DNA of 34,355 nt from a virus. The number at the start of each line of letters is the position of its first letter. Position 1 is the first letter of the stretch. Shown piece by piece: positions 5,133 through 28,989 of the stretch. The notes below the pieces were generated by a model. The model was not told the origin of the DNA, searched no databases, and saw only the letters and a list, made by a program, of their open reading frames with translations. Where the stretch lies: positions 1-34,355 of IMG/VR virus record IMGVR_UViG_3300029319_007653, one strand, 5' to 3'. The position numbers and the translations under genes are program-made.

Positions 5133-5138
5133 TCTCCT
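5133..5138 (-). promoter_or_regulatory. Shine-Dalgarno of gp25-like gene overlapping upstream stop codon
   Basis: AGGAGA on the minus strand, five bases before the ATG at 5127. It shares bases with the TAG stop of the 2561-residue gene, so terminating ribosomes could reinitiate on the gp25-like gene. Confidence 0.7.
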
Positions 5139-11100: not shown

Positions 11101-12822
11101 AAGTGGCTTGTTTTCAAAACTTAGTATGAGTTCGTAAGCTGCGAAATCCTGCATTCGGGAACTTATACGTCCTATCAAGAACTCTGTTTCTCTTTTAAAT
11201 CCAACAATTTTCTCATTCTCGGAGTCTATCGTTGTCTGTAAGTTTTTGAGACTATCAAACCCCTCTTGAACACGTTCGCTGCCCAAAGAATCTTGATGGT
11301 CACGGCGAGCATCAAACAAACTTGGGTTTTGAGCATTGAAGTTTTCATCAGCGAGATCACTCTCTAGCCTGTCGAGTGCCTTGTCGTCTCCTCTGGAGGC
11401 GGCTGCTCCAGCGGCTAATATCTTACAAGCGTTCTGGTTCCATTTATATTGAAGACTATCCCATGTCGAAATGATTTGGTCGAAGAAGAAATCACGAAGA
11501 CCTTCGGTTCCACCCTGATTGTCTATAACGCATCCTAATATTGAAGTACCGGCCTCAACGACAGAAGTCTCTGCTGTCTCATTACCGTAATCCAAAGAGA
11601 GTTCGGGGTAAGTATATTGCACCAAGAAGTCAAGCCACGGAGGGGTCTCTCGTGAATTTAAATCACTTTCTATATCGTTAAGTTGTGCTATGTACCCCAT
11701 CACGGTGGGGTTGTTGAACGGTGCCTTATATTTAACGCCATCAGATTTTTTTAATCGATTTAAACTAATTCTTTCGTACTCTGGACAATCATTGCCCATA
11801 ACTTCTAGTTTTTTGATATAATAGGGATTATTTTCGTTTTCGCTCTTGAATGTAATCTTAATCTTGATAACAGATTTGGGAGTCACTATCGATCTAAGCT
11901 TGTATGGAGTTTGAGCCTCAATCAGTTCCTCAATGTCGTCCAAAGCCGTGTCTAATTTTTCTGGATATATTTTGCAATAAAACGAATTCTTGTATGATCC
12001 AATAACGGGATCCTTCTGAAATACCAACTTACCTTTCTCGGTTTGCCACCACATGGCCTGATATTTGCTGTATACATCCAAGGTACGCTTCAGCCTTCTA
12101 AGTTGGCCTTTAACTCTTATACCGTCGAGGACAACCTCTTTAATTGTTGCGGCATCCTCTGGTTCTTCAACGAATTGTTCAGCAGGGACTCTATCAAATA
12201 TAAATGCAGGTATTACAACCTTTACCCAGATAGGCACGCCCCCTTTGGGAGATTGATATGTAGAAATCCAATAGTCGTCGGATCTTGCATAGAGTTCCAG
12301 ACCTTCAGGATTAAAACCATCGGCATTGGACAGATTGTAAGCTTGAAGTACTGCCTCTTGTATACCGTACGAGTCATAACTTCCGTTTTGAACTTGTTGA
12401 GTTACAACCTCAATCAATTGTTCGGTTGTTGCGTTCTTTTCCTTAAGCATTCTTTGAAGTTTTTGAGGGCTATCAGGAAAAGCGAACACTACATCGTTTG
12501 ATATCTCCTTATCAAAGAATCGCAACAATTGATAAATTCCTGCTATCTTATAAGAATCAATGATTTCTTTTAGACTTTTACCTGAATCTCTAATTTGAGA
12601 CACATCATAAGAATCGCCTTCGTTGTTAACATTAACTCGGACAACATATTCGCACGTTCTTCTATCAAGATATGGCTCTTCGTTTTGGTGCCACACCACC
12701 TCGATTGCATTTGGATCAGGTATACAAGTTGGGCACACCTTTGGAGGAGGAGTCGCTTCTTGGGTTGGTAAACAGACATCTTCTTGTTTGTTTAAGAATT
12801 TTGATGGATTTGATTCGCTCAT
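5137..12822 (-). CDS. Giant virion structural protein with peptidoglycan-binding domain
   Basis: The product has 2561 residues, the largest in the window. Residues 17-33 hold three cysteines (C17, C30, C33, the last two as CPTC). Residues about 627-705 are an extremely Arg/Lys/Glu-rich probable coiled coil. Residues about 912-990 match a PG_binding_1 domain: GSQGKDVSTLQLML, then DGKFGPNTKTAVEFFQ, then TGIVDAATIAVLNP. Residues about 1110-1250 contain amphipathic and hydrophobic helices. Other parts show no family I recognise. Its ATG overlaps the previous stop (ATGA), and it sits between the spike-like protein and gp25, so I infer a baseplate or tail-tip component contacting cell wall during infection. 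A tape-measure role is less likely because long uninterrupted helix does not dominate. Confidence 0.8.
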   Translation of the reverse strand: MSESNPSKFLNKQEDVCLPTQEATPPPKVCPTCIPDPNAIEVVWHQNEEPYLDRRTCEYVVRVNVNNEGDSYDVSQIRDSGKSLKEIIDSYKIAGIYQLLRFFDKEISNDVVFAFPDSPQKLQRMLKEKNATTEQLIEVVTQQVQNGSYDSYGIQEAVLQAYNLSNADGFNPEGLELYARSDDYWISTYQSPKGGVPIWVKVVIPAFIFDRVPAEQFVEEPEDAATIKEVVLDGIRVKGQLRRLKRTLDVYSKYQAMWWQTEKGKLVFQKDPVIGSYKNSFYCKIYPEKLDTALDDIEELIEAQTPYKLRSIVTPKSVIKIKITFKSENENNPYYIKKLEVMGNDCPEYERISLNRLKKSDGVKYKAPFNNPTVMGYIAQLNDIESDLNSRETPPWLDFLVQYTYPELSLDYGNETAETSVVEAGTSILGCVIDNQGGTEGLRDFFFDQIISTWDSLQYKWNQNACKILAAGAAASRGDDKALDRLESDLADENFNAQNPSLFDARRDHQDSLGSERVQEGFDSLKNLQTTIDSENEKIVGFKRETEFLIGRISSRMQDFAAYELILSFENKPLRSKPADARLTANNYGIDTLDDIIDELEEVIKKIDESQNTIDESHAQMVFLENSNARERERKQNQERRKATREARSEKRAARRSWESIYDQADEIENKRDLRREQRKQRREDRQFFKSEAKTRRRNRGSERGEDPFVRAARDAVLESFEFEGSLISIFLTEEEFSSYGLAGLNTSRLARKKGLSAKQRLKNFISNFGLCGFTKLIQKAIRCLMAGMDLDTALRTIIRSTLENMAPGGMEKLLLGLDPRKQQDIKDYVARTFRNMPAPWETNYDPGRIVTDQEVQLQQNSAVSDQFKSKQAQVEAKKSEIQLIESFLSELKTYLETTARFLGDDSSALRLPEGIVLQQGSQGKDVSTLQLMLIGLYGPPIPDEFEWTAVGFEEDGKFGPNTKTAVEFFQERNLLEKTGIVDAATIAVLNPPKDPGDRIDTGVINRITAILGKTDEESRILTQFQNQLFSTADSRGADLISSLQKEIRDLEAESTALGGEQLDYWNSLSTEEQDQMIADARNQTGAVDITNPDQVQQGSIGKALGNVQKAVFDAYVEAFMTLVGIQDLFAALDKIPGAKLIGRIIASFDCPNVHFIYPPIDSFLSTLTFRQCLDNGRFAFPRIPNLGNIRSLPKIIWGFLKEAFKKAIEELIVRVITAFVLKILLTIENALCKALEAVGQFAAEAVKGPEANFGGLMRDFFCGDDASDDEIQDFTSSLLTSIGVTNNELDRLAKQTTQNDLRNKHLQITQTIARISSRRELEQLIVANDGEQDVNTLSRISSTITLQYPEFEAFFNTPEKVAAIFSSIGNFLTPDQRQAVRENLQRPDVDLPVDASICLTNEQLEDWNNKRQALLTNAGLNPEDAKDYVDKLNEQAEDDLGDLADLANQGPEQILGDAINDALFPDTGGRLKDPFCDPSAGGIAQMETAESAAVADELADGVFRSLSLAFSNDMIGKRDSLLDNILADTCNLPLKRHQQRTNNVVFQIDWADSQEAWDAKKERFEQTKIGEIYFGALSSEEPVGVFPETVGILTKDKLNENEFDINYTFETKRRPQVKTRTVKQVGDMRDVKVKYRTKYKKNPDLTLDFYNDKDSGVRFEHELCMTSYQDGEVKIEKDLGYRSFIYYYGNEYVPDPDDPDDDGKDMPYDNLQYRIKVGVPTDLSGGALLETHGGISEKALQELQIPYQGAIFASYVNSILSGAGHPSLPTKPIAKESYKNYTKYLYSGIMKGLNTRLDGTQPEGYDFGYEANNLTPDDLIYVDPEATSDEDTWEYTYDNEEMVLGKSATENPRVHFLDPSIYGGTYVNPPIYIEPQNFSGWLGFAQTIVPEFDGCAPRRTDFIGLRELADNVRKLERAIPMDPRLREDPDCVKHIPFDKISDPSTLAYLDTTIKATIRIYITEAMTKTLPLLSHMKYDSKNYDSGFESLIVERMQDGLDETEARFSIFGGRIQNYNYWLLFLEQAVQSLVRKIDLGEIQSNSEIDEARNKINKAQRNFVYPSKEAFIKIRGTSPALLRYTPQGQEANARGEGGIEVVNPSKIEEEYRNQPAVRQILRGLYIAGFGSLAKMGNFVDQEVELRPNFLTLNGARFASKINTIHNVRGAAKTLLKYLVKSELETMSVELNENLKNPPYIDSYHKYTFALSDVYAGTTLRSGLTETEKPIVDGEINYGDVPNVGEAQTSTLLATGGFYIEKYIRIVDKPEEMAATSPFWNSGDNPERQEGTTVPATSIVTQRPDSLRGVCSIPEFGAYFAQSKDQFDDSTNISDIFGDAIATTTSYEGSTGLRFGVRICMVYDPIIGAQIDPSKIDPEVIQREKAFITSIPIASYEQDIPDIKFKELEFSDKDLGQDLKCYIDNLAESEEYLFVMNYAFGITKLPSLSMMYVNESFIESIGADVERDLDNIIDRFDDGWKGEILSDSKRICRQLFASFYRSDDFEKPERDDGRSLREILNQFKEGSIFGKTDPAMKWWRRRRLRSRPYDKNGNECAGEFASLFKN

Positions 12823-16975: not shown

Positions 16976-17926
16976 TTACCATCTAAAGTGTTTCTTGTAG
17001 TGATTAACAAGATCTTTGATTTCATCATCAAATATTCTTTTGGGGGACCACCCGAGAGATCTTAATTTATCATCATTAAGGGCATAGCGAACGTCTTGGC
17101 CTTCTCTTTTATATCCCAAATCGACATAATCAAGGTAATTACGATCATCGTCAAAATAACATTCAACTATTTTTTTAACTGTTTCTTTGTTTTTTTGTTC
17201 AAATCCACCTGCGACATTATAAATCTCATCGTAAGTTCCCGATTCGATAATGCAAATAACCGCCTCAGCAGTATCACCGGCATGGAGCCAGTTTCTTACA
17301 GGCTCGCCCTCATCATGAAGTCTTATTTTTTTGTTTCTCTGTAGAAGTTTGACCGAAACCGGAATCAATTTTTCAGGGTATTGTCCTTGGCCGTAATTAT
17401 TCGTAGGTCTCAAAATAAGATACTTAAGGCCGTAAGTGCGAGCCCATGCAAATATAAGCATGTCGGCGGCGGCTTTTGATGCAGAATAAGGGTTGCTTGG
17501 TTTCAGAATATCCGTCTCTATATGTTCTCCATCAACAATATCACCATAAACTTCATCGGTGCTGAAGTGAAAGAAGATCGGTTGATTATCAACGTTTTTT
17601 GGCTTTTTACGGATCAAATCAAGCAAATTCTTGGTGCCAACCACATTTGAGTGTATAAAATCCTCTGATTCAATAATGCTGTTTCCAACATGGGACTCCG
17701 CTGCTATGTTAATGACGTAATCGCAATCAGGCAGATAAGCAACATCAGCGATGTCTTTTTTTATGAAAGTAAAGTTTTCAAACATCTCAAAGTCTTTTAG
17801 TAAGTCTAGGTTTGCTGCATAAGTACATTTATCAATACCATATACTTGCCAGCCCTTTGCTAAACAGCGCTTTGTTACATGCGAGCCAATAAGCCCCAAG
17901 CATCCGGTGATTACAACTAATTTCAT
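16976..17926 (-). CDS. Nucleotide-sugar 4,6-dehydratase, RmlB-like extended SDR
   Basis: The product has 316 residues, close to the RmlB family (about 350). It starts with the NAD-binding loop GCLGLIGSH; the 4,6-dehydratase signature STDEVYG gives Thr123, Asp124 and Glu125, and the SDR pair is Tyr147 and Lys151 in YSASK. AAESHV and RPTNNYGQGQYPEKLIP are also typical of RmlB. Such enzymes convert an NDP-hexose to the 4-keto-6-deoxy sugar, the entry step to most deoxysugars. Active residues are complete, so it should be functional. The nucleotide (dTDP, CDP, UDP) cannot be told. GGGAGA lies before the ATG, which follows the cupin stop directly. It may feed the 3-dehydratase encoded at 21329. 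Confidence 0.85.
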   Translation of the reverse strand: MKLVVITGCLGLIGSHVTKRCLAKGWQVYGIDKCTYAANLDLLKDFEMFENFTFIKKDIADVAYLPDCDYVINIAAESHVGNSIIESEDFIHSNVVGTKNLLDLIRKKPKNVDNQPIFFHFSTDEVYGDIVDGEHIETDILKPSNPYSASKAAADMLIFAWARTYGLKYLILRPTNNYGQGQYPEKLIPVSVKLLQRNKKIRLHDEGEPVRNWLHAGDTAEAVICIIESGTYDEIYNVAGGFEQKNKETVKKIVECYFDDDRNYLDYVDLGYKREGQDVRYALNDDKLRSLGWSPKRIFDDEIKDLVNHYKKHFRW

Positions 17927-18292
17927 TTAATCTCCCTTCTCGATCCTATAACTGTCGCTATCAAAATGTTGAGTCGAAAACTCAAACAGCTCAGTATCTT
18001 CCAGTGCTTCCATTCGATGTCTTAAGCCCGTGTAGACATGAAAATTGTCTCCTGCTTCAAGAATTGTGGTATGTGCTTTGTCTATATCATCTTGGTCCGA
18101 GTAATAAACGAGTATCTTTCCAGACTGGACATAGAATACTTCGTCCTTCAGTTTGTGATAATGCCAAGAGCATTTCTTGCCCTTTACAAAATAAAGCAAT
18201 TTTCCACAATACTTTTCTGAATTGTGAAACCACTTTTCAAAACCCCATCCTTTGGGGACAAAATTAATTTCCTGCGTTGAAGAAGTCTTCAT
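17927..18292 (-). CDS. Cupin, mannose-6-phosphate isomerase type II-like
   Basis: The product has 121 residues, a single cupin domain. Motif 1 is WHYHKLKDEVFYVQSG with metal-type histidines and Glu; motif 2 is LEAGDNFHVYTGLRHRM. The start KGWGFEKWFHN resembles the cupin domain of type II phosphomannose isomerases and related sugar-phosphate enzymes. A sugar isomerase or epimerase role in the island is likely, but substrate is unknown. The gene begins inside the HAD gene, overlapping it by 29 bases, with AAGGA before the ATG. Confidence 0.7.
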   Translation of the reverse strand: MKTSSTQEINFVPKGWGFEKWFHNSEKYCGKLLYFVKGKKCSWHYHKLKDEVFYVQSGKILVYYSDQDDIDKAHTTILEAGDNFHVYTGLRHRMEALEDTELFEFSTQHFDSDSYRIEKGD

Positions 18293-18590
18293 CTTTCATT
18301 CCTTTATCGTCAATATAATAGTCTCCAGCGGGTTTACCCAAAAACAGTTGATGATATTTTACTCCCCATGTTTTGAGTTGTTCCTCTGTGAGCTTTCTAA
18401 ACGCTGCTTCAGCATAAGCAGCCGAATTATCGGACCGGCCCATACCTCGGGCCGTTAATAAAATAATTATATGTCCTTCCTCAAATAGTTCGTTAACTTT
18501 TTTTATGCGGTTCTCGATTGGAAGCGCAGTTTCATAATCTCCAAATGTATTGGTACAAAGAGTACCGTCTATATCAAAAACATAAGTCAT
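18264..18590 (-). CDS. HAD-family phosphatase
   Basis: The product has 108 residues, a minimal HAD core without cap. Motif I FDIDGTL has Asp6 and Asp8, motif II is LLTARGMG with Thr46, and motifs III/IV are Lys86 in LGKPAGD and the acidic pair YIDDKG (Asp94, Asp95). Small HAD proteins of this kind occur in capsule and LPS sugar clusters and may dephosphorylate a sugar phosphate. Next to an HldE-like nucleotidyltransferase, removal of a phosphate from a heptose bisphosphate is an attractive idea, but motif I is not the usual GmhB form. ATGA overlap with the preceding gene. Confidence 0.75.
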   Translation of the reverse strand: MTYVFDIDGTLCTNTFGDYETALPIENRIKKVNELFEEGHIIILLTARGMGRSDNSAAYAEAAFRKLTEEQLKTWGVKYHQLFLGKPAGDYYIDDKGMKDEDFFNAGN

Positions 18591-18985
18591 TGTGACTCCA
18601 AAATATTGGTGGTAGAATAATCCCCAATACGCTCAAAAAACTTTAATTCTTTTGCATGCTCACAACCAATTACTGTTTTCTCTCGATAATCAGAGCCGAC
18701 TATCATAACCTCTGGTTGAAACAGACAAATTAAATCTCTCAGTCTCGCTTCAGAATCAAATATAACTACCTTATCAATGTATTTGATTGACTCTAACATA
18801 AACTTTCTATCATCTTGATTATTGATTGGGCGACTATCTCCTTTTAAAGACTTCACCCGAGAATCAGAGTCAATACCAACGACCACAGTCCCACCAAAGC
18901 TCTTAGCGTACTTGAAGAGCTCCAAGTGTCCTCGGTGCAAGATATCAAAGCACCCATTAACCCATACGTGTTTAGTAGTTAGCAT
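18587..18985 (-). CDS. Cytidylyltransferase-fold nucleotidyltransferase, HldE C-terminal domain-like
   Basis: The product has 132 residues, the size of one nucleotidyltransferase domain. VNGCFDILHRGHLELF holds the HxGH motif (His17, His20); SRVKSLKGDSRPI and the late STT at 124-126 match the RfaE/HldE domain II type, which makes ADP-heptose from heptose-1-phosphate and ATP. The partner kinase domain is encoded separately at 20175. Related enzymes use glycerol-phosphate or other alcohol phosphates, so the heptose substrate is inferred. It starts 14 bases inside the upstream SDR gene. Confidence 0.75.
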   Translation of the reverse strand: MLTTKHVWVNGCFDILHRGHLELFKYAKSFGGTVVVGIDSDSRVKSLKGDSRPINNQDDRKFMLESIKYIDKVVIFDSEARLRDLICLFQPEVMIVGSDYREKTVIGCEHAKELKFFERIGDYSTTNILESQ

Positions 18986-19901
18986 ACCACGGTCTATCTA
19001 TAAGTTTATACATCTTGATCAACTGATTGATTCCAAAATCTAAATCGTATTCACATTTGAATCCTAGATCGTAAAGTTTTTGGCTACTCACAATATAGTC
19101 TCTTTTGTCTGGATCTTGCGTAAATTCTGCTCGGATAATCTCGATAGGTATCTGTTCATTGATCTTCTCGGCAAGTTGTAATTTATTCATGTTAATGCTA
19201 TCGTTTCCAACATTAAACGTCTCATTCTTGCAGCGATCCCAGTTCTCCATAATAAATTCGAACACACGACATACATCCCAAATGTGGACATAGTTTCTCA
19301 TGAACTCACATTCATACAAAACCAAAACGCGATCTTTGATTGCTTTTAATACAAAATTGTTAACAAGCAAGTCAGTGCGAGCACGACTTGAGGGACCAAA
19401 GACAGTCGCCAAACGAACTGTGCAACATCCCTCGGTTTGTCTAAAAATATCTTCTGCTGCAACCTTGGTTTTGCCGTATAATGATACAGGATTCAAAGGG
19501 GATTCCTCTGTGCATACTGAACCATCAACACTAACACCGTAACCTGAATTTGTACAAGGATAGATCAAAATTTGATCATCTCTTTTAACTTCTGCTAACC
19601 ATTGGTTAACGTCCAAGTTTACCTCGGTGGCCTCACGGGGTCTCTGGTCACACAAAGGAAAACCAACAAGCGCAGCGAGAGGAATGATAACATCGGCGTC
19701 TTCAACATATTTCTGCATAATGTCTAGTCTACGAACATCCAAGCGATCAAAGTCGAAACTTTCATGACCAACATATCGCAAAAGCGAATCAGGCTCGTAA
19801 TCCAGACGATCCAAAACTTGAACTTCATGGCCGCTGCTAAGCAAAAAGCCAACTAATTCGCTGCCTATGTAACCAGCGCCTCCAGTTATCAAAATTTTCA
19901 T
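18972..19901 (-). CDS. NAD-dependent epimerase/dehydratase (extended SDR)
   Basis: From the ATG at 19901 the product has 309 residues. It begins MKILITGGAGYIGSEL, the full NAD-binding loop; NSGYG supplies the Ser/Thr region, and SLYGKTK the catalytic Tyr and Lys. RNYVHIWDVCRVFEF and FNVGNDS are common C-terminal SDR marks. The STDE motif of 4,6-dehydratases is absent, so an epimerase or reductase of a nucleotide sugar is more likely. The start is decided by AGGGAG nine bases upstream and an ATGA overlap with the Mpo1-like gene; an earlier ATG at 19925 would give extra residues lacking in the family. Confidence 0.8.
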   Translation of the reverse strand: MKILITGGAGYIGSELVGFLLSSGHEVQVLDRLDYEPDSLLRYVGHESFDFDRLDVRRLDIMQKYVEDADVIIPLAALVGFPLCDQRPREATEVNLDVNQWLAEVKRDDQILIYPCTNSGYGVSVDGSVCTEESPLNPVSLYGKTKVAAEDIFRQTEGCCTVRLATVFGPSSRARTDLLVNNFVLKAIKDRVLVLYECEFMRNYVHIWDVCRVFEFIMENWDRCKNETFNVGNDSINMNKLQLAEKINEQIPIEIIRAEFTQDPDKRDYIVSSQKLYDLGFKCEYDLDFGINQLIKMYKLIDRPWYANY

Positions 19902-20188
19902 CTTTCTAATCTCCCTAAGATCCAATCTTTTAGCATAATCCAGTCACACGCCTTGGCCCACAATGGGTTAGAAAATGCAGCCGGTTTGTTTTTTTCAAAC
20001 ACGAAATGGCCAGTCCATGCAAACGGATATATTACAAACGGTGCGAGCACCAAAAGTGGCCAAACTTGGAGGTATATAACCTCGATTATAAACGCGATGG
20101 TAACAAACTGTCCCAGCACATGTAATCTCCTACACCATTTATTTTGATGTAATGTGAGATAATATTGATAATATTCATGAAATTTCAT
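19898..20188 (-). CDS. Mpo1/DUF962-like membrane protein
   Basis: The product has 96 residues with two hydrophobic segments, about 25-40 and 43-58. The Mpo1-like (DUF962, YGL010w) pattern is clear: YYLTLHQNKWCRRLHVLG with His14 and His23, then FAWTGHFVFEKNKPA with His61 and Glu65. In yeast, Mpo1 is an iron-dependent dioxygenase of 2-hydroxy fatty acid alpha-oxidation at the ER; bacterial members are mostly uncharacterised. The conserved His residues suggest a metal site is kept. It sits between the HldE-like kinase and an SDR, overlapping both. A role on a lipid or lipid-linked glycan is only inference. Confidence 0.75.
   Translation of the reverse strand: MKFHEYYQYYLTLHQNKWCRRLHVLGQFVTIAFIIEVIYLQVWPLLVLAPFVIYPFAWTGHFVFEKNKPAAFSNPLWAKACDWIMLKDWILGRLER
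19911..19916 (-). promoter_or_regulatory. Shine-Dalgarno deciding the start at 19901
   Basis: AGGGAG nine bases before ATG 19901. It lies downstream of the alternative ATG at 19925, so it favours the shorter protein. Confidence 0.7.
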
Positions 20189-20924
20189 TGACTGTGTTAA
20201 CTCCTTTTAGTTGAACTACTTCAGTAGCGCACTGATTAGCAAATTCAATTGCTTCATCAATGTTCTTGGACTTTAAATAGTTCACACAAAGACCAGCCAT
20301 AAATGTGTCTCCAGCACCACACAAATCTTTAATCTCAACTTTTTCAACCTGATAGGTTTTGTTTCCTAATTTACAGCCATCAGAGCCCAAAGTAACAATA
20401 ACTTTGTCTTTTGCCCACGAAGACTTTTTTATAAACTTCATTGAAGCTGCGTACTCATTCTTGTTTATTTTTATATAAGTGCAGTCCTTACAATAATCTC
20501 CAATTATTTTTTTTGTGTCGATGAAAACAAGAGGGTGATTCTCGCATATAAACTGTATATCTTCTTCCAGCAAGAATCCCTTGTTGTAATCTGATATGAT
20601 TATAAGTTCAAAACCGGAGATAAAGTCAATAGTCAGGTCTTCAATCCTCTGAATATTATTTTCTCCGGAATCAATTCTGAGAAACATGTGGTTTGTCTCT
20701 TCGTGGACATAGCGCTTCTTCTCGATCACAAGGCTATTTGTTTTAAGTATCGCTGGAGATCCCATGGAAACAACATTTTGATAAACGTTACCAGCCATTC
20801 CAAGGTTTCTTTTTTCGTAATTGGGAATAAAGACGGGCACAGGCGCATCCGGTGCTAGTCGCTCACAACGACCATAAACATGTACATCTTTGCACCCGTC
20901 GCCAATTACTAAAATTTTACTCAT
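20175..20924 (-). CDS. PfkB-family sugar kinase, HldE N-terminal domain-like
   Basis: The product has 249 residues, shorter than a full HldE kinase domain (about 320). CERLAPDAPVPVF and LGMAGNVYQNV match the start of heptose-7-phosphate kinases; SDYNKGFL, DTKK and KINKNEYAA follow in the same order as in HldE. The PfkB signature LCGAGDTFMAG gives catalytic Asp206. The family phosphorylates D-glycero-D-manno-heptose-7-phosphate at C1. With the nucleotidyltransferase at 18587 it makes a split HldE. No GmhA-like isomerase is seen, so heptose phosphate would have to come from the host. It overlaps its neighbours by 8 and 14 bases. Confidence 0.8.
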   Translation of the reverse strand: MSKILVIGDGCKDVHVYGRCERLAPDAPVPVFIPNYEKRNLGMAGNVYQNVVSMGSPAILKTNSLVIEKKRYVHEETNHMFLRIDSGENNIQRIEDLTIDFISGFELIIISDYNKGFLLEEDIQFICENHPLVFIDTKKIIGDYCKDCTYIKINKNEYAASMKFIKKSSWAKDKVIVTLGSDGCKLGNKTYQVEKVEIKDLCGAGDTFMAGLCVNYLKSKNIDEAIEFANQCATEVVQLKGVNTVNEIS

Positions 20925-21327
20925 TCCAACTAATATCCCAATCTTTAAATTCTGCTGCTAGACAATCTATTTTGTAATCTTTTCTACCACCGGCAACTTC
21001 TTGGATTTTATTCTTTGCAGTATTTCTAATACCATTGAGGCCGTGGGTAAGTTCAAGATTGTTTCCGTCTTTAATACCTTTGCGATAGTTTGACTCGTTG
21101 TGCCAGATATGCAGGTTCATTTGAGACAGAACTACAATTGCTCTTACAGTGTTGCTATCTAATATAACATCTTTTTCCTTCAGTGTCAAGTCGATATCAT
21201 GTAAAATATCAGAAATTTCCTGAGCGTATTCTTCTTTGTGTTCGGGAATAAAGACTTCCTTAAGTTGTACAATGGATAATCTGTCTACCAATTCAGACAA
21301 GGTGGGTAAATATTTTCTTTCGCTCAT
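20917..21327 (-). CDS. Conserved protein of unknown function, possibly DUF4254-like
   Basis: From the ATG at 21327 the product has 136 residues, mostly helical. Conspicuous segments are LSELVDRLSIVQLKEV, LSQMNLHIWHNESNYRKG (residues 68-84), THGLNGIRNTAKN and DYKIDCLAAEF. The N-x-x-I-W-H-x-E spacing recalls DUF4254 proteins, which occur near LPS glycosyltransferases, but this is only a resemblance. GAGGAG lies before the ATG, just behind the upstream stop; the frame opens earlier but without such a signal. It lies between the 3-dehydratase-like and the heptose-kinase-like genes. Confidence 0.7.
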   Translation of the reverse strand: MSERKYLPTLSELVDRLSIVQLKEVFIPEHKEEYAQEISDILHDIDLTLKEKDVILDSNTVRAIVVLSQMNLHIWHNESNYRKGIKDGNNLELTHGLNGIRNTAKNKIQEVAGGRKDYKIDCLAAEFKDWDISWNE

Positions 21328-21328
21328 T

Positions 21329-22468
21329 TTAAACTCCTCTACACAATGCAAGACCTTCTCGCATCGCAGTACAAATACGTTCTACGTCATCATCGCTTAA
21401 ATACTGGTGACACCCAATATGTACACCATTCATTCCAACCCACTCGGCCTCTGGGAAGTCTCCAAGAGAATAGCCCATATCTTCGAAAGCACCATGTTGG
21501 GTCGGGATGCAACCAAAGTTTCGCTTATGGTGTATGTTATATTTATCGAATGTATCTTTTATTATTTCAATATTGCCCTCGTGTTTGCAAGTAATACTAA
21601 ATCCATGAGGACAGTTGATGTTTCCTTCGTCTTCCTCTGAGAACCATGCAACATCTTCAAAGCCTTCAACCGCTTTACGCATACGCTTCATGAAAGCATG
21701 ACGTGTCCAGAACGTATCCCAAAAAACGTCGATCGCTTCCAAGCCAACAGAGGCTTCCATATCGTTCATTTTAGAGTTTATGCCTGTTCTTTGGTGATCA
21801 AAATATACAGAATTAACTGGGCGTCCGTGAGATCTGGTTGAGAAAATCAGATCGCCGATTTCGTCACTGTTGGTGGATACCATACCGCCTTCTCCGCAGC
21901 ATACCAAATGAGCAACATAAAAGCTGTATACAGACATGTCTCCCCAGTGGCCAACAAGTTTGTCTTTAAATTTTGCTCCATGTGCTTCACATGCATCTTC
22001 AATAACAATTAAGCCGTGGCGTTCGGCTATTTCACAAATAACATCCATCTCAGCCATTCGACCCATTGTGTGAACAACTTGGATAGCCACTGTGTTTTCA
22101 TTGATCGCTTCCTCAATCTTAGATTCATCTATATTAAGGGTCTCGCGCTTTACATCTACAAAACGTGGAACAAGACCAGCTGCTCTAACTGCATTAGAGG
22201 TGGCGATAAATGATAGTGCCGGAACAATGACTTCGCTCACGTTTCTTTTGGCGTCTTTAAGATCATATAAGGAAAGACATGCATTTATACATCCATCTGT
22301 CCCTGAACTGGTTGCGACACTTCGCTTATAATCAAACAAGTCGCTCCATTTTAATTCAAGTTCTTTTACTTTTGGACCTCCAGAGGCCCAATTTGTATCG
22401 CAAACATTCATCAAGTTTTTACGGGCTTTCTCCCCGATTCTCAATTCTCCAAATTCTATTCTTTTCAT
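21329..22468 (-). CDS. DegT-fold PLP/PMP enzyme with histidine in place of the PLP lysine: probable sugar 3-dehydratase
   Basis: The product has 379 residues, a full-length DegT/DnrJ/EryC1 protein. SSGTDG (54-59) is the phosphate-binding region, and IEDACEAHGA provides Asp158 for the cofactor ring. The Schiff-base segment reads SFYVAHLVCCGEGG: His187 stands where sugar aminotransferases have lysine. The same replacement occurs in ColD (GDP-4-keto-6-deoxymannose 3-dehydratase) and in E1/RfbH (CDP-4-keto-6-deoxyglucose 3-dehydrase). The SFYxAH order is close to E1, but the spaced cysteines of E1's iron-sulfur site are not seen, so a ColD-like, cluster-free mechanism is favoured. It shares one base (TAATG) with the ThDP beta-like gene. 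Confidence 0.8.
   Translation of the reverse strand: MKRIEFGELRIGEKARKNLMNVCDTNWASGGPKVKELELKWSDLFDYKRSVATSSGTDGCINACLSLYDLKDAKRNVSEVIVPALSFIATSNAVRAAGLVPRFVDVKRETLNIDESKIEEAINENTVAIQVVHTMGRMAEMDVICEIAERHGLIVIEDACEAHGAKFKDKLVGHWGDMSVYSFYVAHLVCCGEGGMVSTNSDEIGDLIFSTRSHGRPVNSVYFDHQRTGINSKMNDMEASVGLEAIDVFWDTFWTRHAFMKRMRKAVEGFEDVAWFSEEDEGNINCPHGFSITCKHEGNIEIIKDTFDKYNIHHKRNFGCIPTQHGAFEDMGYSLGDFPEAEWVGMNGVHIGCHQYLSDDDVERICTAMREGLALCRGV
21334..21339 (-). promoter_or_regulatory. Shine-Dalgarno deciding the start at 21327
   Basis: GAGGAG six bases before ATG 21327, overlapping the end of the upstream gene. It favours this start over the ATG at 21351. Confidence 0.75.
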
Positions 22469-22992
22469 TAGTACAAGTCTCCATGTTCAATAATTAAAGT
22501 TGATCGATCGCCATTAAGTGCTCTTTCGTATGCGGGCATCACCTGAAACGGATATAATAATTCAACCACATCAATGTTGGTGCATGCGCTGCGGAAGCAT
22601 TCGGTGTAGTTTGCTTTGTGTTGGTGGCCCGGATCCAACGGATAAGACGAGCCAACAACGGCTTTCATAATAATCTTTGGCTTACTTTGGCCCATGGACA
22701 TTGCTTCCCATTTATCCAGATGATTAACGATCTGATTCATAGCCAGAATTATAAAATTCATTCGAGGATACATTGAAACTGGTATGAAACCCTCAATCGC
22801 TAATCCTAGTGCAATACCCGCTTGGAACTCTTCGGCAACCGGTAATTCCAAAAGCTTCTCGTTTGGGAACTTTTTTACCTGATGGGTTAAGGCTGTTCCC
22901 TTGTATTCTATGGCTTGGCCCATAAATATTGTTTTGGGATGGGCTCCCAATAATTCCATCGCTTTGTATACTTCTTCTTTATAAGTTGACAT
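22468..22992 (-). CDS. ThDP-dependent enzyme, pyruvate dehydrogenase E1 beta-like (pyrimidine domain only)
   Basis: The product has 174 residues. It follows the E1 beta transketolase-like pyrimidine domain: PVAEEFQAGIALGLAIEGF, with Glu54 at the position of the ThDP-activating glutamate, then MNFIILAMNQIVNHLDKW, and the closing IIEHGDLY that in E1 beta ends this domain. The usual C-terminal transketolase domain of about 130 residues is missing; the protein stops just there. GGAG is six bases before the ATG, which follows the alpha-like stop directly. It should pair with the alpha-like product at 22993. Confidence 0.8.
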   Translation of the reverse strand: MSTYKEEVYKAMELLGAHPKTIFMGQAIEYKGTALTHQVKKFPNEKLLELPVAEEFQAGIALGLAIEGFIPVSMYPRMNFIILAMNQIVNHLDKWEAMSMGQSKPKIIMKAVVGSSYPLDPGHQHKANYTECFRSACTNIDVVELLYPFQVMPAYERALNGDRSTLIIEHGDLY

Positions 22993-23625
22993 TTAAAACT
23001 CCACAAAAACGCCGGTGCCTGAATGAGGATAAGACATTTCGTATTTATAATAAATGACCTCAGCCTCTGAATTCTCAGACATCTTTTTATATATTTCATA
23101 TATAGATTCTGTTGGTATCGAGCCCCAACTGGCTTCTGTGGGAGTTCCCACTGATTTACCATTGTCTTCAATTATAAAAGTAATTGGTAAATCTTTCCCT
23201 ATTGAGTAAACAATAGACTCATGAGAGATACCAGTTCTGAAACCCATATCACCCAAAAAGCAATATACTCTATCTTGTTTTCCCTGTCTCTTGAGAGCCA
23301 TGGCTGTGCCTACAGCGATAGGAGAAATTCCTCCTACAATCGCAGAACTATAGAAGTTGTAATCTGCGTAATGAAGCGTGATTGATCGGCCTTCTAATAT
23401 GTCTTGTTTTATACGCTCTTCTGGGATCCCTTTCAACAATGCGTGCAAATGACTTGCCCATGTTGAATAAACATAATCTTCTTTTGTAATCTCAAGTTCA
23501 GCAAAGATATCCACAAGCTTTTGTTCATTCCCATCACGAAGATGCACAGGTGCTTTGATAAGTCCTGCCTCGTAGATTTGTGCTATTTCTTCTTCGAACT
23601 TTATTAAATCATTGGCTGTTAACAT
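22993..23625 (-). CDS. ThDP-dependent enzyme, pyruvate dehydrogenase E1 alpha-like
   Basis: The product has 210 residues, against about 320-360 for E1 alpha. The ThDP motif is kept: LGDMGFRTG starts at Gly125-Asp126, and Asn155 in IIEDNGKSVGT follows with the exact GD-x28-N spacing of E1 alpha proteins. HLRDGNEQKLVDI and YSTWASHLHALLKG match the N-terminal substrate region. The C-terminal quarter of the usual protein is shortened. E1-type enzymes decarboxylate a 2-keto acid and transfer the two-carbon unit. No lipoyl E2 or E3 gene is nearby, so transfer to another acceptor, perhaps a keto-sugar, is likely. The start overlaps the RmlC-like gene by 17 bases and has AGGAG upstream. Confidence 0.8.
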   Translation of the reverse strand: MLTANDLIKFEEEIAQIYEAGLIKAPVHLRDGNEQKLVDIFAELEITKEDYVYSTWASHLHALLKGIPEERIKQDILEGRSITLHYADYNFYSSAIVGGISPIAVGTAMALKRQGKQDRVYCFLGDMGFRTGISHESIVYSIGKDLPITFIIEDNGKSVGTPTEASWGSIPTESIYEIYKKMSENSEAEVIYYKYEMSYPHSGTGVFVEF

Positions 23626-24118
23626 GTTCTTTCAACTCCTGCAAGGTTTGGGCGTTTTCATCCCTGTCTGATACTATATTATGAAATGTTGTGGCCCATT
23701 GTGGTTTTATGGTGCTATCGTTATAATGCACACTCCACTGGTCTTCGGGTCCGGTATATAATTCGCTCCACTTGTAGTAAAAAATACAATTAGAACTCAA
23801 GCATTGATGCGCGTTTAAAGTTCTAGGAGGAACAAGCACTGATTTAATATAATGATCATCACCGTTTAACATATATGTGCTTTTTTTATCTGTGTCTATG
23901 TTGTAAGTAACAAGTTTTACTTTACCATGCAAGCATGTAATCAATTTCCAAGTTTTATTGTCTCCGTGAAAACCACGAATCACTCCTTGGAATGATTTTG
24001 AAATCTTGTCTTGAACGAACGTCACACCTTCAGGCATATCTTCTTGTTTGAAAATAGTGTAGATATTACCTCTTTTTTCAAAATACTTACCCTCAAAAAA
24101 CACAATATCATCGTACAT
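23609..24118 (-). CDS. Nucleotide-sugar 3,5-epimerase, RmlC-like cupin
   Basis: The product has 169 residues, close to RmlC (about 180). FVQDKISKSFQGVIRGFHGD is the family signature, with His51 in the catalytic position and Lys58 in TWKLI. NAHQ (His104) and YYKWSELYTG with Tyr121 correspond to the second half of the site. RmlC epimerises 4-keto-6-deoxy sugars at C3 and C5; relatives act on C5 or C3 only. It could change the configuration of a 4-keto sugar made by the dehydratase at 16976. It overlaps both neighbours by 11-17 bases; no strong Shine-Dalgarno is seen. Confidence 0.8.
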   Translation of the reverse strand: MYDDIVFFEGKYFEKRGNIYTIFKQEDMPEGVTFVQDKISKSFQGVIRGFHGDNKTWKLITCLHGKVKLVTYNIDTDKKSTYMLNGDDHYIKSVLVPPRTLNAHQCLSSNCIFYYKWSELYTGPEDQWSVHYNDSTIKPQWATTFHNIVSDRDENAQTLQELKEHVNSQ

Positions 24119-25064
24119 TGTTTATATACCACTCCGAGGTTCTCTTTAAGCCTTCCTCAACAGATGTTTTCGGTTCCCATCCAAGATCATTCTTTGCTTT
24201 GTCGCAATTCAGAATGACGGTGGTCGGGATATCTGGTTTAGTTAAATCGAACTTAAATTCTAGATCTTTACCATTCAGGGTCATGATTGTTTTCGCCAAC
24301 TCCAAGATAGGATATGCTTGGCCAGCACCACAATTATAAAGCTCATATTTGCTTTCTTGATTCTCGATACACTTGTCGATAAAGTCTATCAAATCGTCAA
24401 TGTAAATAATATCTCTGGATGCTCTTCCTTGTCCCCAAATTTCAAGAACTTCGTCTGCATTGATTACTTTATTAACAAATGCGGGGACAACATGACACTT
24501 ATCGAGATCAAATTTATCATATGGACCATAAACGTTTGAATGGCGGAAAGCAGTAAACTTGGTCTCACCAATTCTGGAATAGAAGTCACACATCTTCTCA
24601 CAAAACACTTTCATGTTACCCACACCAAAATAAGCAGGATAGATTTCATCCAGAGGGCTCCAGTCTGCTTCTGATTGTGGATGATCTTTTGGTTGATACA
24701 TCACGGTGCAACTTGGAAACAGCAAGTGTCCAACCTTGGTGCGCATTGCTTCTCGAAAGATCCAAGAGTTCATCACAGAATTGTCTGTAACGTGAACATA
24801 TGGTCGCTCTACTACGTCTTTAGCGCCGGTGGTTGTTGCGGCGGCCTGAAGAACGACATCAAATCTTTTGCTCTCAAAAAGATCAATAACCTCAGATTCT
24901 ACTCTGAGGTCAATTGAAACATACTCCACTCCCTCAACGACGCCTCTTTGAGGAACATCTTTGTTGAAAAGAGTAGCTGTGATATCATAACGATCTTTGA
25001 AGTAATCAAGGGCGGTTTTACCAATGAATCCATCAGCACCGCAAATCAGCATCTTCTGCTTCAT
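24108..25064 (-). CDS. Fcl/WcaG-like NAD(P)-dependent SDR with atypical active site (copy 1)
   Basis: The product has 318 residues. CGADGFIG is the cofactor loop; AAATTTGAKDV and the VYGPYDKFDLDKCHVVPAF segment are like GDP-fucose synthases. The expected YxxxK reads V148-G-N-M-K152, so the canonical Tyr is missing, although Tyr145 and Phe146 lie just before. The C-terminus (GKDLEFKFDLTKP, then SVEEGLKRTSEWYINN) is closely matched by the protein at 25716, indicating paralogues. A reductase or epimerase acting on a 4-keto sugar is likely; the altered site leaves the exact reaction open. It starts with ATGA overlap after the methyltransferase. Confidence 0.75.
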   Translation of the reverse strand: MKQKMLICGADGFIGKTALDYFKDRYDITATLFNKDVPQRGVVEGVEYVSIDLRVESEVIDLFESKRFDVVLQAAATTTGAKDVVERPYVHVTDNSVMNSWIFREAMRTKVGHLLFPSCTVMYQPKDHPQSEADWSPLDEIYPAYFGVGNMKVFCEKMCDFYSRIGETKFTAFRHSNVYGPYDKFDLDKCHVVPAFVNKVINADEVLEIWGQGRASRDIIYIDDLIDFIDKCIENQESKYELYNCGAGQAYPILELAKTIMTLNGKDLEFKFDLTKPDIPTTVILNCDKAKNDLGWEPKTSVEEGLKRTSEWYINNVR

Positions 25065-25723
25065 TCTTCCCCCTTGATAACGTAAGCAATACCAACCTCA
25101 GCAGAGTACGAAATAAACGTCCAATCAAGTCCAGATTCTCTTATAACACGAGGACTACCATATCGCTCGCCTTCAAAGTTAACGTCGTGCATAGCAATAA
25201 TACCACCGGGCTTTACTTTTGACCAGTAGTTTTCTAGATCCATTTTTACATATTCGTATGAGTGGTTACCATCAATAAAAACAGCGTCATACTCTCCGTC
25301 TTTGATAAGTTCATGTGCTTTAGTTGAGTCGCCCTGAATTATTGTTTCATGATCCAAGTCCATCTCAGGCAAGTATCTTTCAATGAATTCCTTATCGTAC
25401 TCAATAGTAGTCATATGGTCTAACAAAAGACTAAGCATAAAGTGAGTTGAACCCCAGTGTCCCAAACCAATTTGGAGCATATGTTTAACATCATTATCGA
25501 TAAGTAATTGCAAGAAATCAGATATTTCTTCCCGCACCTGTTGGGTTACTTGAGGATGGCTGTTAACAATATCAACATCTGGATTGATGTACAAGTCTTT
25601 GTACCAATCGTTGGCGGCCAATATGTCTCGCGAACGTTGTTCAGAGATAGCCAAAATAGCTTCAACGGTAGATAAAGCAGTTTGATCTTTTATGTATCGT
25701 CTTATAAATTTTTTATTAATCAT
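25061..25723 (-). CDS. SAM-dependent methyltransferase, Methyltransf_24-like
   Basis: From the ATG at 25723 the product has 220 residues. It has a Rossmann-type core: MLQIGLGHWGST (SAM motif I), TIEYDKEF, then AVFIDGNHSYEYVKMDLENY and GGIIAMHDVNF, the pattern of Methyltransf_24 enzymes that often methylate sugars. The start is decided by GGAGAG six bases upstream and an eight-base overlap with the preceding stop; an earlier ATG at 25771 lacks such a signal and lies deeper in the neighbour. It sits between two paralogous SDR genes, so a sugar O-methyltransferase is the natural inference. Confidence 0.75.
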   Translation of the reverse strand: MINKKFIRRYIKDQTALSTVEAILAISEQRSRDILAANDWYKDLYINPDVDIVNSHPQVTQQVREEISDFLQLLIDNDVKHMLQIGLGHWGSTHFMLSLLLDHMTTIEYDKEFIERYLPEMDLDHETIIQGDSTKAHELIKDGEYDAVFIDGNHSYEYVKMDLENYWSKVKPGGIIAMHDVNFEGERYGSPRVIRESGLDWTFISYSAEVGIAYVIKGEE

Positions 25724-26705
25724 TGTTCTCTCCAACATAGTAAGGATTAAATCGTCCTTTTGTGGGGCCATTCTTTATGTACCATTCGTAAGTTTCACGA
25801 AGACCTTCCTCCAAGCTAACAGAGACTTCAAAACCGTGACCTTTTAAGCGATCTGTAATAGGCACTCTAAATTGATCACCGGTTGGCTTAGTAAGGTCAT
25901 GGGTGATTTCAAGATCTTTTCCTGAAACCTTAACCAATGCTTCAATAACTGATTTAATAGTAAATGTTCTTCCGTTACCCACATTCATTGGCTCAGAAAT
26001 TTTGTTCTCAACTGCAAAGATAGCAGCACGAGCAACATCACGGGCGTGGATGATATCACGACCGGCTTCACCAGTTCCCCATATTTCTACAGTGTCTGTT
26101 GCTTCAGCAACTTTTCGAGTCAACGAAGGGATCAAAGTAGAGGTGCGGAGATCAAAATTATCAAATTTTCCATAAATGTTAGCGGGCTTGATAATAGACA
26201 TCTTTGCTGTCTCATATTGTTCATCATATGCATTAATTTGGACTTCGCCCATTCGCTTAGACCAACCGGCGTACCAATCGTTTGGAGATGGATTTTGTGT
26301 CCATAAGTCTTCTTCTTTGAACGTTCTAGCCGGTCCATAAGTACCGATAGTGCTCGTGTATAAACCCCATTTAACTGATGGCGTATTGTAAATTGCATCG
26401 ATCATATTAGTGTTCATCATGATGAAATCTCTAAAGATCTGATACTGAAATGTCTTCATAACAACAGGAGACCCTTTGATTCCTGCAATGTGAAACACGT
26501 AATCCATGCCCTCACACAGTTTGTGGCAGTTTTCTTTTGAGCGAAGATCCATCTTGATATATTTGGCTCCCCATGCAGGATCCAGATTGTTTTCGTCTAA
26601 TGAAACAGAGGTAACGTCGGCACCTCGTTTAACCATCAACTCTACTAGTTCTCGACCGACAAGACCGGTACCACCAGTAATTAATACTTTTTTGTTTTCA
26701 AACAT
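25716..26705 (-). CDS. Fcl/WcaG-like NAD(P)-dependent SDR with atypical active site (copy 2)
   Basis: The product has 329 residues. VLITGGTGLVGRELV is the cofactor loop, LYTSTIGTYGP the Ser/Thr region, and YAGWSKRMGE the segment of the catalytic Lys150. Here the residue four before the lysine is Ala146 and the tyrosine is one position earlier (Tyr145). IIKPANIYGKFDNFDL and the C-terminus (GKDLEITHDLTKP, SLEEGLRETYEWYIKN) match the SDR at 24108. Probably a nucleotide-sugar epimerase or reductase. GGAG precedes the ATG, which overlaps the upstream glycosyltransferase gene by eight bases. Confidence 0.78.
   Translation of the reverse strand: MFENKKVLITGGTGLVGRELVELMVKRGADVTSVSLDENNLDPAWGAKYIKMDLRSKENCHKLCEGMDYVFHIAGIKGSPVVMKTFQYQIFRDFIMMNTNMIDAIYNTPSVKWGLYTSTIGTYGPARTFKEEDLWTQNPSPNDWYAGWSKRMGEVQINAYDEQYETAKMSIIKPANIYGKFDNFDLRTSTLIPSLTRKVAEATDTVEIWGTGEAGRDIIHARDVARAAIFAVENKISEPMNVGNGRTFTIKSVIEALVKVSGKDLEITHDLTKPTGDQFRVPITDRLKGHGFEVSVSLEEGLRETYEWYIKNGPTKGRFNPYYVGENND
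25728..25733 (-). promoter_or_regulatory. Shine-Dalgarno deciding the start at 25723
   Basis: GGAGAG before ATG 25723, inside the end of the upstream SDR gene. It favours the 220-residue methyltransferase over longer forms. Confidence 0.7.
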
Positions 26706-27652: not shown

Positions 27653-28366
27653 CTATCTCCAGCCTCTTATTCTGCAATCGATATTAAATTCATCGATAAT
27701 GCTCTTCATCTCATTTGGGTACTCGGATAAGTTCCATTGGCCTTTCACAACAGCGGTGGCGATGCAAGGATAAATATTTGAATCATGGTGGTGTATGCCT
27801 CTCTTGGGAGTTCCACCATAATGCAGGAGACCTCGAATTCCAAGTTGTCTACAGTAATCGCCGCCATTTGGTTCATGCTGCATTCGTCCATTTTCACTTG
27901 GCGCAGCCCGAAAGACACTTTCAAACGCTCGTGTGTCCCAAAGCGACGCTTGTTGAGCAAATAAATTGGGACTATCAAAATCTATTATGTAGAGATCGTC
28001 TTTGAAGTGGTCTACTTTCTCTGGTCCTTTTATAAATTTACAAAAACTGTATTCTGTGTTGTCCAGAACCTCAGAGATCTCTTCTATCTTTTTCTGCTGA
28101 ACAAAATCATATAAATAATAATCTTCACTTGTATAAATTATATACTTCTCTTTGACTTGCTCAATGCAAGACAGAAACTGGTTACGATATGAAACGTTAT
28201 TGTCATAAGTTATAGGAATAATGTTTGCAGGAATGTCCTTGGTCGTATCTGTGAAAGCATACTTTTTGATACCGCTTGCATATTGATCAAGCCTCCCAAA
28301 ACAAGGAGGCCAGACATCAGAGTAGTTCGAATTGGTATCAATAATAAGGGCTATGTTGTCTTTCAT
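27653..28366 (-). CDS. Putative GT-A-type glycosyltransferase
   Basis: The product has 237 residues. The N-terminus ALIIDTNSNYSDVWPPCFG and the segment KYIIYTSEDYYLYD (Glu81-Asp82) resemble the start and the acidic metal motif of small GT-A glycosyltransferases; near the C-terminus is a histidine-rich GIHHHD. No family is recognised with confidence. It lies between a glycosyltransferase and a compact DegT-like enzyme, with ATGA overlap to the latter, so a role in glycan assembly is inferred from context and weak motif only. Confidence 0.5.
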   Translation of the reverse strand: MKDNIALIIDTNSNYSDVWPPCFGRLDQYASGIKKYAFTDTTKDIPANIIPITYDNNVSYRNQFLSCIEQVKEKYIIYTSEDYYLYDFVQQKKIEEISEVLDNTEYSFCKFIKGPEKVDHFKDDLYIIDFDSPNLFAQQASLWDTRAFESVFRAAPSENGRMQHEPNGGDYCRQLGIRGLLHYGGTPKRGIHHHDSNIYPCIATAVVKGQWNLSEYPNEMKSIIDEFNIDCRIRGWR

Positions 28367-28989
28367 TTTTTTAAAACCGGAATGTTTTTAAAGAGTTCAA
28401 ACTCAGTCAAATCTCTGTATGGTGGGTCCTCTGGAATGTCGGGCATGTGCTCAGGATAGTTCTGCATCAGTGTTAATCCTCGGGCAGCTTGTTCAGGCGT
28501 CATGTACATGTTCCAGCCCTCTTCGTCGATCATATCTTCATGGTATTTTTTGCCGTCGGTTCGGCCTTCGTATCGACGTGCTTTGAACCATTTTGCAGCC
28601 TCAGCATCGTCGCATAAAATGAGTCCACCCTTACCAATCTTGAGGTGTTTTTTGATGTGAAAACTGAGGCACATAAAGGTGCCGGGGATGTACATTCCGG
28701 AGGTCAATCTCTTCGCCGCATCATAGATTGGGTGAGGCTTCAATTGGTAAATTCCTTTCCAATCGATCTCCTCAAAAATTAAATTTCCACCGGCTTGTTG
28801 GATGGATTGTGGAGGCGAAAGATAGGTCTGTTTTGGAATGATTACGTCTTTGTTTTTAACGTCAACCCATAGGCACGAAAGGAAGATTGCATTGGTGCAG
28901 CTGTTCAACGAAACAGCATATTTTGACCCGCAATAATCAGCCATTGTTTCTTCAAACATTTTAACAATTTTGTAAGGATTATGACGCAT
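28363..28989 (-). CDS. Compact DegT/DnrJ/EryC1 aminotransferase with PLP lysine retained
   Basis: The product has 208 residues, against about 370 for the family. KYAVSLNSCTNAIFLS matches the phosphate-binding start, IIPKQTYLSP the next strand, IYDAAKRL gives Asp90 for the cofactor ring, and SFHIKKHLKIGKGG gives Lys114 at the Schiff-base position with correct spacing to GxGG. About 45 residues between the strand at 70 and Asp90 and much of the C-terminal domain are absent. No frameshift is needed to explain this. It would transfer an amino group to a keto-sugar if active. It is the first gene after the promoter at 29005-29033, with GGAG five bases before the ATG. Confidence 0.7.
   Translation of the reverse strand: MRHNPYKIVKMFEETMADYCGSKYAVSLNSCTNAIFLSCLWVDVKNKDVIIPKQTYLSPPQSIQQAGGNLIFEEIDWKGIYQLKPHPIYDAAKRLTSGMYIPGTFMCLSFHIKKHLKIGKGGLILCDDAEAAKWFKARRYEGRTDGKKYHEDMIDEEGWNMYMTPEQAARGLTLMQNYPEHMPDIPEDPPYRDLTEFELFKNIPVLKK

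Follow-up and report, generated by a model that had tools for sequence, protein, structure and literature searches.

A phage DegT-fold protein with histidine at the Schiff-base lysine position, from a putative third lineage of iron-sulfur-free sugar 3-dehydratases

The locus described here raises the question of which reaction is carried out by a marine phage protein that has the DegT fold of sugar aminotransferases, but a histidine at the position of their catalytic lysine, and which sugar the surrounding genes could make with it. The locus lies in a DNA stretch of 34,355 nucleotides, in the following referred to as the window, which was analysed as a whole and comprises positions 1 to 34,355 of the IMG/VR record IMGVR_UViG_3300029319_007653. 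The source record is a virus fragment of 48,850 bp that carries genes for a late sigma factor of the T4 type and for the baseplate wedge. Beside the baseplate-wedge-like genes, an ORF for a 2561-aa phage protein is found (5137-12822, minus strand). Just past the right end of the window, a few consecutive bases of a glycosyltransferase gene (L268, minus-strand ORF 3-1055) are unread (XXXX in the ORF) at about 980-1000. The features around the DegT gene are collected in Table 1.

Table 1. Coordinates of the DegT gene, its key codons and its neighbours in the window.
Feature	Position	Strand	Basis
DegT-fold protein, His-type, 379 aa; predicted PMP-dependent sugar 3-dehydratase	21329..22468	(-)	Pfam, AF2, Foldseek, tree
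His187 codon (Schiff-base lysine position)	21908..21910	(-)	alignment with Lys of 3bn1, 7b0m, 7b0d and His of E1, ColD
Asp158 codon, expected partner of the pyridine nitrogen	21995..21997	(-)	aligns with E1 D191, ColD D161, Per D159; invariant
SSGTDG, residues 54-59, phosphate-binding region	22292..22309	(-)	sequence and alignment
Minimal E1-beta-like ThDP subunit, 174 aa, PYR domain only	22468..22992	(-)	Transket_pyr; Glu54 invariant
Minimal E1-alpha-like ThDP subunit, 210 aa	22993..23625	(-)	E1_dh 48.8 bits; GDM...EDN motif
RmlC-like sugar epimerase / cupin	23609..24118	(-)	PF00908 81.6 bits
SDR, GDP-fucose-synthase-like	24108..25064	(-)	family matches
SDR, GDP-fucose-synthase-like	25716..26705	(-)	family matches
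Conserved phage protein after the DegT gene in many relatives	20917..21351	(-)	cluster c8, 10 phage loci
HldE-N-like heptose-7-phosphate kinase (PfkB)	20175..20924	(-)	TIGR02198 117.7 bits, below cut-off 345
SDR, most conserved neighbour of the clade	18972..19925	(-)	cluster c1 in 50/66 loci
HldE-C-like nucleotidyltransferase	18587..18985	(-)	TIGR02199 114.8 bits, below cut-off 181.5
Small HAD phosphatase	18264..18590	(-)	TIGR01689 39 bits
RmlB-like NDP-sugar 4,6-dehydratase	16976..17926	(-)	TIGR01181 300.6 bits, below cut-off 365.1

The DegT ORF starts with ATG, and its translation is covered over the entire length by the Pfam family DegT_DnrJ_EryC1 (263.5 bits vs a cut-off of 19.8). An AF2 model was obtained with a pLDDT of 95.6 and a pTM of 0.93. 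In a Foldseek comparison, TMq was 0.90 against both E1 (3bcx) and 7b0m, and the overall fold and cofactor pocket resemble those of GDP-perosamine synthase 3bn1, 7b0m and other Lys-type sugar aminotransferases. The fold does not separate aminotransferases from E1-type enzymes; it is the residues that discriminate. In the window protein, the Schiff-base segment reads S182-F-Y-V-A-H187-L-V-C-C-G-E-G-G. In pairwise as well as multiple alignments, the H187 column contains the catalytic Lys of 7b0m, 3bn1 and 7b0d, and also His220 of E1 and the catalytic His of ColD (2gms). The latter is found at chain position 190 in the numbering used here and is His188 of the literature. A ‘mini’ DegT protein of 208 aa is encoded elsewhere in the window (28363-28989, minus strand); it keeps the lysine (SFHIKKHLKIGKGG) and has neither the VIEDACEAHGA segment nor the C-terminal domain.

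Members of the window clade were collected from viral contigs, scanned twice, and from a scan of bacterial and archaeal genomes, which together gave 62 distinct proteins with 42-82% identity. They come from marine-type phages, Nanoarchaeota, Methanoperedens and other archaea, Omnitrophota, Chloroflexi, Acidobacteria, Myxococcota and others. Position 187 is His in all 62 phage, archaeal and bacterial members, so that the catalytic lysine expected of an aminotransferase is missing throughout. The reading of His instead of Lys at this position, made in a first-pass annotation of the window, was thus confirmed, and Asp158 and the SSGTDG region, which it had described as intact, are indeed present and aligned to known enzymes. 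For the DegT gene, dN was 0.13-0.17 with saturated dS, which leaves the YN00 ratio without value; the gene is under purifying selection. Together with the histidine in 62/62 members, this rules out a sequencing or assembly accident or chance. Regarding the scanned collections, one contig of 130,604 bp, listed with a Prochlorococcus single-cell genome, agrees in length, range and match with an IMG/VR virus contig (L054 and L093), and it appears that a phage contig sits in a genome collection here.

With the motif columns removed, a careful tree was calculated from 31 sampled His rows and 15 Lys rows. All 31 His rows, including E1 and ColD, were split from the 15 Lys rows at one branch (bootstrap/SH-aLRT 100/97), and this split was present in 200 of 200 bootstrap trees. 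A quick tree of 104 rows agreed with it. On the His side, E1, ColD and the SFxFSHH type were separated from the window clade and its sister clade (100/100 and 98/94), and the window clade was equally distant from ColD and E1. The simplest reading of this tree, which is unrooted and whose rows were recruited with seeds from the window's own clade, would be a single origin of the Lys-to-His switch, with the window clade as a third His-type branch. A recent swap within the window phage is ruled out, as the histidine is common to E1 and ColD on the same side of the one branch. Judged from these alignments, the swap is a lineage trait and the window clade a third, uncharacterised, Fe-S-free His-type lineage. 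The sister clade is also of the His type and occurs in archaea and viruses (L061, L063, L101, L102, L104 and L106); here GEGG is replaced by SFYIAHNIQVGELGA and similar motifs.

As to the possible sugar, the window contains several heptose-type genes around DegT, all of these heptose-gene matches scoring under curated cut-offs. In the relatives, SDRs, a GHMP kinase (HddA-like, 138 bits), an HddC-like guanylyltransferase (152 bits), GmhA, GmhB and a B12 radical SAM enzyme recur near DegT, and by homology these would be genes of the GDP-manno-heptose route. Since related clusters contain HddC-like and GMD genes, the substrate could plausibly belong to the GDP-manno sugars, as in the case of ColD. 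At L163, a GDP-mannose 4,6-dehydratase (479 vs a curated cut-off of 415) is found near a ThDP pair and a His-type DegT, which would readily supply the type of substrate that ColD uses. That the substrate of the window protein is itself a heptose is possible but somewhat doubtful. No PHROG match was found for the conserved phage protein that follows the DegT gene, and in the literature no description was found of a DegT-transketolase phage module or of a heptose 3-dehydratase.

The most conspicuous neighbours, which like the heptose genes had been overlooked in the first-pass annotation, are two short ThDP subunits, and the stop codon of the beta-subunit gene shares one base with the start codon of DegT. 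The best profile match of the alpha subunit was human PDH E1 alpha (8e-15) and that of the beta subunit PDH E1 beta 1ik6 (7e-13). The pair keeps the ThDP/Mg motif (GDM...EDN) as well as the catalytic Glu, which is Glu54 and is invariant. In this E1-type alpha/beta architecture, and in its location beside deoxysugar genes, it is similar to the alphaKADH2 enzymes KbDH-alpha/beta, AviB1/B2 and EvdU5/EvdS3. Unlike these it is far shorter (210 + 174 aa), and its beta subunit falls short of full length, without the transketolase C-terminal domain. A 2-oxo-acid dehydrogenase complex was rejected, given the missing C-terminal domain of beta and the fact that no recurrent E2-like family stood out among the clustered neighbours. 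KbDH-alpha/beta branches a ketosugar in vitro with a two-carbon unit from pyruvate (PMC12247030), and ketosugar branching has been proposed for EvdU5/EvdS3 (PMC10338323) and AviB1/B2 (PMC4753412). Because related E1-type enzymes add such two-carbon branches to ketosugars, a 3-deoxy branched sugar would be a plausible product of the phage cluster. The product of E1 is CDP-3,6-dideoxy-4-keto-glucose. The same compound is the substrate of YerE, the ThDP enzyme of yersiniose synthesis (PMC12247030), although YerE is a decarboxylase-type flavoprotein, unlike the E1-type phage pair. A 3-dehydratase beside a ThDP ligase would thus follow a known logic, here with a reduced form of the E1-type ThDP enzyme.

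In a reciprocal test, viral contigs were scanned with the ThDP beta profile, which gave at least 485 related stretches. The minimal split pair (22468-23625, minus strand, and loci L108-L187) corresponds to phrog_34187, a family labelled ‘unknown function’. A recurrent gene order is B12 radical SAM, ThDP alpha, ThDP beta, GHMP kinase, His-type DegT and SDR. A DegT protein of the main cluster was present in 61 of the best 80 ThDP loci, and all distinct DegT proteins with an aligned site near the pair in the best 80 viral loci were His-type (47/47). They belong to several lineages, with the motifs AH..CGEGG, SFYFAHHMSTIEGG, the E1-like SFYPAHHITMGEGG and STYVNHLVVGGVGG; the last of these marks divergent proteins without GEGG that adjoin the pair at L160, L163 and L173. 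The A2 search profile should detect Lys-type neighbours, because the window-clade profile A1 ranks 7b0m above ColD. As a control, Lys-type DegT proteins, in which the Schiff-base Lys is present, were used as seeds for another scan, and the pair was found within up to 7 kb at 0 of 80 loci. This compares with 11 of 21 dereplicated phage loci of the window clade (Fisher p = 2e-9, uncorrected for relatedness). In cellular clade loci, the short pair was detected in 4 of 40 and longer E1- or transketolase-type matches in 20 more, and full-length E1 alpha/beta genes lie nearby, often directly downstream of DegT.

It is important to add that no more than about half of the loci in the clade have a ThDP pair. 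In the cultured cyanophages S-SM2 (L269:9296-10504) and P-TIM68 (L270:9365-10510), a fused ThDP protein has heptose kinase and phosphoheptose isomerase genes as neighbours, and no DegT is annotated at a distance of up to 10 kb. The two enzymes are consequently not obligate partners. These cyanophage loci, and the split transketolase genes in several cellular clusters, speak for an alternative in which the 3-dehydratase is real, while the pair is a transketolase-like or other ThDP enzyme that supplies sedoheptulose 7-phosphate, both genes being simply members of a heptose cluster. We consider this alternative unlikely, although it deserves attention. The profile of the pair is PDH/BCKDH E1-like and not transketolase-like, a genuine split transketolase is nearby at some loci (L021), and the pair is linked to His-type DegT only, over several His lineages. 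By analogy to the enzymes above, branching of the same sugar by the ThDP pair is possible, with rather more doubt than confidence.

Turning to the chemistry, the well-characterised nucleotide-sugar 3-dehydratases are, to our knowledge, limited to E1, ColD and SpnQ. In these enzymes, a Schiff base between PMP and the sugar is formed first, followed by loss of the C3 hydroxyl driven by the His, which is the catalytic acid/base. Thereafter E1 and SpnQ need electrons via [2Fe-2S], whereas in ColD, which has no cluster, the intermediate is hydrolysed and PMP is reloaded from glutamate (PMC8987622). E1 (CDP-6-deoxy-L-threo-D-glycero-4-hexulose-3-dehydrase, RfbH/AscC; 3bcx) has in common with the window protein the DegT fold, the His at the Lys site and the SFYxAH form of the segment, which in E1 reads SFYPAHH with the catalytic His220. 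Additionally, Lys233 of the window protein is equivalent to Lys290 of E1. In contrast, Lys315 replaces Arg374 of E1, both proteins lie on separate branches, and the RfbH model NF011936 gave 182 bits vs a cut-off of 423. The [2Fe-2S] ligand loop of E1, with its four cysteines, is missing. At the columns of C253, C257 and C261 all 62 clade members have gaps; at that of C251 the window protein is non-Cys, and Cys is not one of the residues most frequent there in the clade. The absence of the E1 iron-sulfur cysteines, seen earlier in the window protein, therefore extends to the clade, and the deleted ligand region in all 62 rules out E1-type Fe-S binding.

In the case of ColD (GDP-4-keto-6-deoxy-D-mannose 3-dehydratase; 2gms), the DegT/aspartate-aminotransferase fold, the His in place of the Schiff-base Lys and the lack of [2Fe-2S] ligands are the same as in the window protein. 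However, the ColD segment SSFYSHH has a Ser before the His where the window protein has Ala, the window protein does not group with ColD in the tree, and the active-site residues Arg250 and Arg331 of ColD (own numbering, via a two-residue chain offset) are Lys233 and Lys315. These Arg-to-Lys changes may alter amino donor or sugar binding relative to ColD. The earlier proposal of a ColD-like mechanism combined with an E1-like SFYxAH segment thus stands regarding the missing cysteines and the E1-like ‘AH’ pair, and needs revision in that the clade is a third branch apart from both enzymes. This equal distance from ColD and E1, and the two arginine changes, could also fit a His-type PMP enzyme with other chemistry, be it host ferredoxin electrons as in SpnQ/E1, a one-way C4 amino transfer or another heptose reaction; SpnQ, for example, is able to transaminate without reductase (PMC8987622). 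As the Fe-S ligands of E1 and SpnQ are absent in 62/62 members, we regard this as rather improbable.

Lys315 is the sole invariant lysine among the 62 clade members, and its column is Arg in 22 of 22 other His-type rows, while Lys233 swaps with Arg. The first-pass annotation had considered that a nearby lysine might take over the Schiff-base role. Across the clade alignment no lysine near the site is invariant, which rules out such a substitute. A plain PLP aminotransferase using a different lysine is thereby very improbable, even if the PHROG family of the window protein (phrog_3139) is labelled aminotransferase and its top-scoring solved structures are aminotransferases, and even the H220K variant of E1 yields only non-catalytic transamination (PMC8987622). 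A catalytically dead DegT-fold scaffold or regulator, as the loss of the usual catalytic lysine might suggest, is hardly credible at all, with the cofactor-site residues and the His invariant over phages, archaea and bacteria and the gene under purifying selection.

Because the window clade has neither Fe-S ligands nor a substitute lysine, ColD-like action is expected. Altogether, PMP-dependent, ColD-like 3-deoxygenation by the window DegT is well supported but unproven; dehydratase activity as such is quite likely, and turnover of the ColD type without external electrons is reasonably probable. In this mechanism, PMP and a 4-keto nucleotide sugar would form a Schiff base. His187, which is unable to form an internal aldimine with PLP, would serve as acid/base and take the C4' proton of PMP, and the C3 hydroxyl would be expelled. 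With no iron-sulfur cluster, hydrolysis would free the product and an amino donor would restore PMP, as in ColD. The phage cluster, with its kinase, nucleotidyltransferase, and 4,6-dehydratase-like and epimerase SDRs, would make a nucleotide heptose or a related sugar. The overlapping minimal E1-type ThDP pair would most likely put a two-carbon unit on the keto group, so that a surface glycan would receive a 3-deoxy, C-branched sugar. As a whole, the explanation that the window DegT is a PMP-dependent nucleotide-sugar 3-dehydratase in a heptose cluster with ThDP branching is in our view probable on balance. A wider generalization is tentative and, taken in full, unlikely: that a two-cofactor module is common to phages, archaea and bacteria, with a PMP 3-dehydratase of the third lineage and then a minimal split E1-type ThDP ligase converting a nucleotide-activated heptose (or hexose) to 3-deoxy C-branched higher sugars. 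We know of no virus with such sugars.

The window clade is annotated as ‘aminotransferase’ everywhere. A third Fe-S-free lineage over phages, archaea and several bacterial phyla would mean an early Lys-to-His switch with later diversification. The clade also offers a natural set of Fe-S-free enzymes for asking how the ColD-type reaction ends, and the minimal ThDP pair is a candidate for a small ketone-accepting C-C ligase. The exclusive neighbourhood of the ThDP enzyme directly predicts an unusual sugar. Overall, this points to a route to unusual deoxy, possibly branched, sugars that is common to viruses, archaea and bacteria.
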